Shown here one piece after another: positions 5,680-7,612 of a stretch of DNA of 7,612 bases. The position numbers and the translations under genes were made by a program. The notes under the pieces are model-generated. The model was not told the DNA's origin, did not search any database, and saw only the letters and a program-made list of their open reading frames with translations. Each line of letters starts with the position of its first letter. Position 1 is the stretch's first letter. The DNA is taken from assembly GCA_028819955.1 (NCBI GenBank), contig JAPPKP010000157.1, forward strand, positions 1-7,612, given 5' to 3'. Source of the DNA: Rhodospirillaceae bacterium. GTDB lineage: Bacteria; Pseudomonadota; Alphaproteobacteria; UBA828.

Positions 5680-6660
5680 GTGACGATCAGTGCGGAGCAG
5701 TTGGCGCAATACGAGCGCGATGGATTCCTCATCGTCGAGGGAATGTTCTCGGACGACGACCTCCAGCCGGTGATCGACGAGTTCGAGGCGGCCGTCGACT
5801 CGCTCGCCGGGCGCCTGTTCGAGGCGGGCCGAATCACCAGCGCGTACGCGGATGAGGGCTTCTACACCCGCATGGCCAAGGTCGCCGCCGAGTACGACGA
5901 AGCACCCGGCCTCATGCAAATCTCCACGCCCATGGGGCCGGAGCTCGCGGCGCTCTGGTCGTCGGATCGCCTGCTCGGCATCGTGGCCGCGATCATCGGC
6001 CCCGATATCGAGGGCGGTGCGATCTGGAACGTGCGCCCCAAGGTGCCGGAAAACGTATTGATGACGGTGCCGTGGCACCAGGATTCCGGCTACCTCGCGC
6101 CGGGCGGCCAGGGTACTGCGCAGCCCGCCTGCTGGATCCCCCTGCTCGACGTGGGCGAGGAGAATGGCTGCCTGCAGGTCGTGCGCGGCGGTCACCGGCC
6201 CAGCGGCAACGCCCGCCACAAGGTCGAGAAGGTGATCGGCGATCCGCGCTCGTGGTATCTCTACATCGACGAAGACGACCTGCCCCCCGGCGACGTGGTG
6301 ACCTGCGCGATGCGCAAGGGCTCGGTGCTCTTCATCCATGAGAACATGCCGCACCGGGGGCTCTGGAACCGCTCCGACCACGTGCGCTGGGCGATCGACG
6401 TGCGCTGGCAGCGGCCGAGCGACCCGACAGGGCTGGAGGGTGTGCTGATCCGCGGACCCCGGATGCGCAGAGGCGACGACCCCGGCTTCCGCCCCGACAT
6501 GATGGCGTGGGCACGGGAGGAGCGGGAGAAGTACGACGCATGGGTCAACAGAGGCGACGGCGACCCGCTGAACCCGGCGATCGACGGCTCCTGGTATTTC
6601 GCCCGCTGGGACCCCGCGTTCAGCGCGGACGACCCGGCGCAGGCGGAAGAGAGACCCTAG
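5680..6660 (+). CDS. Phytanoyl-CoA dioxygenase (PhyH) family Fe(II)/2-oxoglutarate oxygenase
   Basis: Predicted non-haem iron, 2-oxoglutarate-dependent hydroxylase, 326 residues, cytoplasmic (no signal peptide). The N-terminus ISAEQLAQYERDGFLIVEGM is the usual PhyH opening. The iron triad is visible as WHQD (His133, Asp135) and His225 in MPHRG. Arg236 in HVRW lies 11 residues after the distal His, the spacing of the 2-oxoglutarate-binding Arg in PhyH. CWIPLLDVGEENGCLQVVRGGH (151-172) is the family's strand-rich core with the ENGCL turn. The GTG start at 5680 is set by GGGAGGGAG just upstream. It sits 34 nt after the ATPase in the same direction, so it is probably the last operon gene. Its substrate is likely the imported compound or a derivative (inference); family members also act on ectoine, phosphonates and secondary metabolites. 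Its TAG stop shares its G with the inserted element that follows. Confidence 0.92.
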   Translation: MTISAEQLAQYERDGFLIVEGMFSDDDLQPVIDEFEAAVDSLAGRLFEAGRITSAYADEGFYTRMAKVAAEYDEAPGLMQISTPMGPELAALWSSDRLLGIVAAIIGPDIEGGAIWNVRPKVPENVLMTVPWHQDSGYLAPGGQGTAQPACWIPLLDVGEENGCLQVVRGGHRPSGNARHKVEKVIGDPRSWYLYIDEDDLPPGDVVTCAMRKGSVLFIHENMPHRGLWNRSDHVRWAIDVRWQRPSDPTGLEGVLIRGPRMRRGDDPGFRPDMMAWAREEREKYDAWVNRGDGDPLNPAIDGSWYFARWDPAFSADDPAQAEERP

Positions 6661-6704
6661 TGTCCCGATCGAGAAGCTCGTACGCTTTGCCGAGAACCCC
6701 AATA

Positions 6705-6736
6705 CGTCATGGCCGGGCTTGACCCGGCCATCCACG
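6705..6736. repeat. REP-like palindrome, copy 1
   Basis: ATGGCCGGG (6709-6717), loop CTTGA, CCCGGCCAT (6723-6731): a perfect 9-bp stem. Mismatched outer CGT (6705-6707) and ACG (6734-6736) extend it. Read on the minus strand it encodes the start of MDGRVKPGHD, a peptide that appears as a false N-terminus in many alphaproteobacterial annotations because this repeat is dispersed in those genomes (established knowledge). Lying between convergent genes, it can also serve as a bidirectional terminator or mRNA stabiliser. Confidence 0.75.
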
Positions 6737-6771
6737 TGTTGGCTCGAGACTCAACGGATCTGGCAGAGAGA

Positions 6772-6817
6772 GATGCCCGGATCACCCCCGGACTTGATCC
6801 GGGGGCCGGGCATGACG
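6772..6817. repeat. REP-like palindrome, copy 2 (inverted relative to copy 1, with an extra nested stem)
   Basis: Outer stem ATGCCCGG (6773-6780) with CCGGGCAT (6806-6813). Inner stem CCCCCGGA (6785-6792), loop CTTGA, TCCGGGGG (6798-6805). A 4-nt bulge ATCA separates them on the left. It shares the CTTGA loop and the GTCATG flank with copy 1, but the flank is inverted (CATGACG at 6811-6817), so the pair is arranged head to head. Copy 2 is longer than copy 1 because of the added inner stem. Confidence 0.7.
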
Positions 6818-6885
6818 AGAAGAAGTGGAGAGTCGGGGAGACTGCACGGCCAACCCGAAATTATGCGAACTTCAGAAACTGGACA

Positions 6886-7386
6886 CTAGCGCTTGAGGCC
6901 GGCCAGGTCCCAGCCCACCTGGTTGTACATGTCGGGCGCGTTCCAGAGGCCGCGCAGGTACTTGATCTTGCCGTCCTCGACGAAGCAGATCTGCGAGAAT
7001 TGGCAGTCGAAGCGCTGGCCGGTGCCCGCAAGGCCGAAGTAGTCCTTCGTGATGGTGCCGCTCATCCAGCCCATGTCGCAGACGACGTTGCCCTGGACGC
7101 AGAACGCCTCGATGTAGAGCGAGAGGTCGGGCACGGCGTCGAGCCAGCCCGCACCGAACTTGCGGATTGCGTCATGGCCCACCGCCGACGGCAGGGTGAT
7201 GTCGTGATAGACCCCGTCTTCGGCCATGACCGCCACCACCTCGTCGATGTTCTGGCTCGACCAGCCCCGGCACTGACGGACGAGGAGCGCGAGATTGTCC
7301 CGCTCGCTCTCGCTCATGTCGCCGAGGCTGTCCACCGGCTCGTCGGCCAGGTTGCGCTCGCTCATCAGCCACTCGCGTGTGCCCAT
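6886..7386 (-). CDS. SnoaL-like / NTF2-fold protein
   Basis: Small cytoplasmic protein of 166 residues with the SnoaL-like polyketide-cyclase/NTF2 pattern. It has an N-terminal helix SERDNLALLVRQCRGW, then IDEVVAVMAEDGVYHDI (47-63), GHDAIRKFGAGWLDAVPDLS (70-89), the central SGTITKDYFGLAGTGQRF (109-126) corresponding to the family's sGT.h.G...TGr segment, and FVEDGKIKYLRGLWNAPDMY at the C-terminus. The family includes cyclases, isomerases, hydratases and many non-enzymatic binding proteins, so no reaction can be assigned. The first ~25 residues are an extra tail. ATG 7386 is preferred because of AAGGAGGGGAG at 7393-7403; Met8 (7365) is a weaker alternative. It is convergent with the dioxygenase gene, so a functional link to the operon is uncertain. 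Its TAG stop uses the G at the inner end of the inserted element. Confidence 0.82.
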   Translation of the reverse strand: MGTREWLMSERNLADEPVDSLGDMSESERDNLALLVRQCRGWSSQNIDEVVAVMAEDGVYHDITLPSAVGHDAIRKFGAGWLDAVPDLSLYIEAFCVQGNVVCDMGWMSGTITKDYFGLAGTGQRFDCQFSQICFVEDGKIKYLRGLWNAPDMYNQVGWDLAGLKR

Positions 7387-7508
7387 GCGTTGCTCCCCTC
7401 CTTGGCGCTGGTTCGGTACTCGTCCGCCGCATCATCCCACCAACCCGGAGTTCTCACCACGGTTGGGGACTGAGCATCCGGCGACGGACCGGGTGCAGGA
7501 AATTTGGA

Positions 7509-7612
7509 GGGCCGGGGCGCCAAACCGCCCCGCGCCCGGGGCGGCGCGCCCCCCCCCAATGGGCGGAACACAAACCAGCGGGGGGCGCCCCCCCCGCCGG
7601 GGGGGAATTAAA
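7509..7612. other. Low-complexity G/C homopolymer tract at the window end, probably poor sequence
   Basis: Runs of 9 C (7549-7557), 6 G (7580-7585), 8 C (7588-7595) and 7 G (7599-7605) occur in the last ~65 bases, with a GC hairpin CCGCCCC/GGGGCGG at 7525-7544. Nothing similar occurs elsewhere in the window. The whole stretch 7387-7612 shows no convincing gene beyond the SD of the SnoaL gene. It probably carries that gene's promoter, but I see no clear boxes. Confidence 0.55.

Follow-up and report, generated by a model that had tools for sequence, protein, structure and literature searches.

RUP, a 107-bp repeat of Streptococcus pneumoniae linked to IS630-Spn1, is over-represented between convergent genes according to passages of two papers (PMC2229807, PMC3049150). 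For BOX, another repeat of S. pneumoniae, passages of one of them report that in 36 of the 58 CDSs it overlaps the stop codon comes from the repeat, with no strong sign that these genes are truncated; the same passages do not set occupied and empty sites side by side for two stops that share a tail-to-tail overlap (PMC3049150). The CcrM-associated intergenic repeats (CIR) of Caulobacter and Brucella are intergenic with TA termini, and the excerpted source calls their mobility unresolved (PMC2229807). MITEPsy1 of Pseudomonas syringae is reported in an excerpt to be a 100-bp MITE that inserts at CTAG or YTAA and is possibly related to IS5 (PMC3189936). In the accessible sections of the ISY100 paper, this element moves by cut and paste into TA with duplication of the TA, and a title in the reference list (Tenzen and Ohtsubo 1991) states that IS630 prefers TA in CTAG (PMC2170065). 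A prokaryotic MITE review, in the text available, makes no mention of the term "stop codon".

We analyzed a 7,612-nt stretch of a Rhodospirillaceae contig (hereafter the window), in which a first-pass annotation had pointed to a possible MITE between two convergent genes. This element is very probably a non-autonomous DNA transposon (MITE) of the IS630/Tc1-mariner type, inserted by an IS630-family transposase at a CTAG where two stop codons overlapped. It occupies 6660–6886 (227 bp with TA as the target duplication, no strand assigned), an assignment based on its ends, its length, five other copies, and its absence in three relatives. CTAGTGTCC starts at 6657 and its reverse complement ends at 6889, the two ends matching at 9/9, 18/24, and 22/32 positions; the last figure and the coordinates are exactly those of the annotation. 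The end pair is the sole inverted repeat reported within 6500–7050, and when the 550-bp stretch 6501–7050 was dinucleotide-shuffled 3000 times, a pair as good (a 9-bp exact seed plus at least 18/24) arose in 13 cases, a chance of about 0.4%. The terminal inverted repeats lie at 6660–6680 (left, plus strand) and 6866–6886 (right, minus strand), the 18/24 agreement being counted with the CTAG. The duplicated TA is found at 6658–6659 within CTAG 6657–6660 on the left, and at 6887–6888 within CTAG 6886–6889 on the right. The window copy may be old, since its ends are imperfect (18/24).

The convergent placement was borne out by Pfam, with a PhyH-like dioxygenase gene on the left (5680–6660, plus strand, also supported by orthologues) and a SnoaL-like gene on the right (6886–7386, minus strand). 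The TAG stop of the former (6658–6660) coincides with the element's left end and that of the latter (6888–6886) with its right end, so that both stops lie within the CTAG ends, a feature absent from the earlier annotation. Two long frames, 6709–7473 on the plus strand and 6735–5626 on the minus strand, are shadow frames that lie across from the SnoaL-like gene and the PhyH-like gene, respectively. The open reading frames of the window included no credible coding sequence inside the element and no transposase gene anywhere, in keeping with the proposal of about 227 bp without coding capacity between TA or CTAG flanks. Elsewhere in the window, positions 3–1111 of the minus strand hold an HTH-domain gene (HTH by Pfam) with a short gene adjoining it, which we take to resemble a HigA/HigB-type toxin-antitoxin pair. 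At 7541–7612 the final bases are rich in G/C homopolymers, which suggests a contig end of poor quality.

We next compared the locus across relatives. Searching the 22 genomes listed for the order (that of G001, a Rhodospirillales MAG) for a PhyH-like match at E ≤ 1e-40 gave five positives: orthologues at 90–93% protein identity in G025, G024, G001, and G022, and a match of only 49% in G026. The SnoaL-like gene is kept beside PhyH in all four orthologous loci. In three of these four relatives (G025, G022, and G001) the element is absent and the genes abut. G022 has one CTAG precisely at the insertion point, and the two stops overlap there by 4 bases; in G025 the stops likewise overlap by 4 bases, as TTAA; and the G001 junction is CTAA, with a TAG already in frame nine bases earlier in its PhyH frame. 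The fourth junction (G024, locus L060) is occupied by another insert, about 230 bp long, that is unrelated in sequence and has palindromes of its own; this gene boundary has thus been invaded twice. Three relatives without the element and one with an unrelated insert identify the element as an insertion and the G022 form as its exact empty site. Ancient conserved intergenic DNA without empty sites, which the annotation had named as an outcome that would speak against a transposon, is thus not what the homologous loci show. The CTAG that is single in G022 is doubled in the window, as expected for a TA target with a 2-bp duplication. By itself the window fits duplication of either TA or CTAG; a copy in G021 with GTAG on its left and CTAG on its right makes TA the more likely unit.

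The proposal also predicted copies elsewhere, and copies with the same ends are dispersed in related genomes. An end-pattern scan of genome contigs returned 36 loci, mostly in records titled Alphaproteobacteria and including MAGs titled Planctomycetota, Myxococcales, Deltaproteobacteria, Chloroflexi, Actinobacteria, and Gammaproteobacteria; viral contigs scanned with two end patterns gave no matches. One of these loci, L021 in G001, holds an element similar to that of the window. BLAST with the element gave 6 matches in G001 and 12 in G002, and at E ≤ 1e-6 there were matches in at least 13 of 24 genomes, many of them spanning the hairpins only. The end pattern with up to three mismatches matched 52 times in 10 of the 24 genomes, versus once for a reversed control pattern. 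Five further copies could be aligned to the window: two in G025 (82% and 84%), two in G021 (72% and 76%), and one in G001 (69%). They have ends and interior in common with the window and unrelated flanks, the similarity stopping at the ends. One G025 copy (L090) is absent from the matching place in G022, the only informative genome there as the three other relatives are rearranged, giving a second empty site; at a third site, that of the G025 copy L095, the flanks were not cleanly alignable and gave no clean empty site. The element is short, lacks a transposase, has terminal inverted repeats and a target duplication, and occurs in related genomes as dispersed copies with common ends.

We then examined whole elements that carry a transposase. 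Searching plasmids with the left end gave three weak matches (E 4), one of which proved to be a terminus of an intact member of the IS630 family, carried by a Komagataeibacter plasmid (L001, NZ_CP041350.1) and with CTAGTGTCC ends at CTAG/TA sites; the right end gave one weak match (E 0.9). Elements with CTAGTGTCC ends, about 1.15–1.2 kb long with a transposase gene, occur in Komagataeibacter, Bradyrhizobium, Sabulicella, and the order-mate G026, and their transposases are 67–72% identical to one another. The transposase of the intact G026 element scores 275 bits with the IS630 model NF033545 (cut-off 100). Over 24 positions with CTAG counted in, the left end of the window element agrees at 20/24 with both Komagataeibacter ends and the right end at 22/24 with one Bradyrhizobium end, as expected of an IS630-derived element; agreement with the G026 IS ends is only 15 to 19 of 24. 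Two observations speak against this link: the IS630 family model found nothing in G021, a genome with several copies, and the ends of the intact IS630 in G025 are of another kind (TAGAGC...). Solo IS630 fragments are present in these related genomes. Locus L004, a candidate full IS by its end spacing, was not confirmed as one: its longest frame weakly matched other transposases and is probably a shadow frame. The IS630-type transposase genes of L001, L020, and L166 have ...GH or ...RH as their last residues before TAG, which means that the IS, like the window's genes, draws a stop codon from its own terminal CTAG. Taken together, copies, empty sites, and IS630-like ends support the non-autonomous architecture that had been suggested.

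As the stops of the PhyH-like and SnoaL-like genes overlap by four bases tail to tail (CTAG in G022, TTAA in G025), insertion at this TA regenerates both. More generally, because CTAG is palindromic, can form a 4-base tail-to-tail overlap, and the ends start with TAG, an insertion would replace one stop codon with another, on a single side or on both. A G021 copy (L106) sits on the native stop of another gene: homologues in G027, G024, G026, and G023 end at the same codon, G024 is without the element there, and a fifth homologue (G001) is cut by a contig end. From the contig scan, 36 ends were available, of which the 33 with at least 330 nt upstream were scored using frames of at least 100 codons. 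Element ends were frame stops in 19/33 cases versus 56/208 other CTAG sites, counting each strand (one-sided Fisher test, P 0.0006); in this count and in those that follow, the frame was chosen by a crude length-times-GC3 rule and the loci are not phylogenetically independent. They fell inside another frame of at least 100 codons in 4/33 cases versus 57/208. In the related genomes 47 ends were found, and of the 43 counted 15 form stops and 12 fall within other frames, a count without a CTAG control and with sites partly shared with the 36-locus scan. Eight of 28 elements scored at both ends were scored as having stops on both sides (at least 60 codons), clearly so in the window, L037, and L038; the call for L135 fails because its right end has no TAG. 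The tendency of the ends to be gene stops is real but moderate, and CTAG availability at gene ends explains part of it.

The interior of the element is highly structured. The fold of this stretch is much stronger than that of shuffled versions (z -6.3), owing mostly to two G+C-rich hairpins assigned from sequence and fold, neither with a strand. Hairpin 1 (ATGGCCGGG..CCCGGCCAT, 6709–6731) is the sole source of the plasmid matches to the whole element. Hairpin 2 (ATGCCCGG..CCGGGCAT, 6773–6813), with a CCCCCGG..CCGGGGG stem, is kept in four of the five other aligned copies and is missing in the G001 copy (L040). A plasmid search with the whole element matched internal hairpins only (17 records, none covering 80%). 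The hairpin module 6709–6813 (ATGGCCGGGCTTGACCCGGCCAT with its inverted counterpart) also occurs in large numbers apart from these ends, both in related genomes and on alphaproteobacterial plasmids, and it may thus be a separate repeat captured by the MITE. At L033 and L018, the loop of an internal hairpin is split by one common sequence starting ACTGCTGTCCGG, which suggests another element that inserts into such hairpins.

Since hairpins without these ends are so common in related genomes and on alphaproteobacterial plasmids, the locus might be read as a palindromic repeat of the REP/BIME or rhizobial mosaic kind with its own spreading route, its inverted ends being incidental. This is extremely unlikely: homology among full-length copies stops at the TA-flanked ends rather than at the hairpins, and the empty sites delete precisely from end to end. 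The strong folding (z -6.3) and the position between convergent genes would also suit a host-owned bidirectional transcription terminator or 3' stabilizer. Consensus searches found neither a terminator-like site with a T run nor a promoter-like site, Rfam gave sub-threshold, implausible matches only, and three relatives do without the element; the probability of such an origin is close to negligible, given the missing T-run site and those three relatives, although the element may still act as a terminator or stabilizer after insertion.

The IS630-like ends, along with the solo IS630 fragments in these genomes, could instead mark the decayed remnant of one full-length IS630 element that suffered an internal deletion in place and never belonged to a small mobile family. 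Copies of about 180–236 bp at different sites in several genomes, with the same interior and with hairpins unrelated to the transposase gene, make this very unlikely. For the IS630-type MITE, the element with its ends and the stops within them, the other copies, and the empty sites can be read from the genome sequences compared. Its arrival would have required an IS630-family transposase encoded elsewhere that recognizes CTAGTGTCC-type ends. The 227-bp element would then have entered the TA of CTAG, the shared 4-base stop overlap of the tail-to-tail genes. The TA would have been duplicated and each end would then read TAG, so both genes would keep their stop codon and C-terminus, and the insertion would survive by being harmless. 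Cut and paste is the known mechanism of the family; we infer that it acted here in trans, what its exact partner IS was, and that harmlessness explains survival.

A second repeat has related ends. It measures about 165 bp and consists of two hairpins with a short linker, an outer left end CTAGTGTCCCGATTC(T/A)GAAGTTCG, and GANTC sites in the first arm. Thirteen of 20 loci judged by eye hold it (L005, L006, L013, L016, L024, L026, L027, L028, L030, L031, L032, L036, and L037), and Hyphomicrobium G031 has about 40 or more sites. Some copies have a left end identical over 24 bases to that of a Bradyrhizobium IS630 element (L007). In G031, 40 sites were fetched and 29 resolved, giving 49 ends with TAG; 17/49 were stops versus 9/51 other CTAG sites (P 0.043, marginal), and frames were crossed at 12/49 versus 12/51, no difference. 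This repeat has the CTAGTGTCC outer end of the window element. It resembles the CIR as described in the excerpted source, a comparison of descriptions only. We tentatively suggest, as a reading somewhat less probable than its negation, that one IS630-type group, autonomous and miniature, is widespread and uses CTAG stops as safe landing sites, and that this same IS group would move the CIR-resembling GANTC repeat, which occurs in many Alphaproteobacteria.

The window thus offers a comparative, base-exact case of a MITE in a shared stop overlap with neither protein altered. It points to a possible explanation, open to testing, for the accumulation of such elements between convergent genes, namely that the target is the commonest harmless site and that the bases with which the element begins re-create the stop. 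The case also ties an alphaproteobacterial intergenic repeat family to a defined IS630 group.

The annotation had called the element undescribed, and no description of it was found among the matches listed in the literature searched. The window element is new, its kind is already known, and its landing site is unusually neat. The full-length IS630-family elements have the same CTAGTGTCC ends at CTAG/TA sites, but at about 1.15–1.2 kb they carry a transposase gene that the window element lacks. As far as the excerpted descriptions go, MITEPsy1 is likewise a MITE at CTAG, with a 4-bp duplication and other ends, and CIR are likewise alphaproteobacterial intergenic repeats with TA termini, whereas the window hairpins are of other sequence and the window ends, GATCG and GTTTC, contain no GANTC. 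BOX, in the part of its description at hand, similarly provides the stop codon of genes, but it is modular and tied to ISSpn2 ends. RUP, compared by partial description, differs in sequence and length, the window element being hairpin-rich and from an alphaproteobacterial host; both are small and non-coding, with TA termini, ends resembling an IS630-family element (a resident one for RUP), and placement between convergent genes. RUP and BOX are close precedents for the window element.
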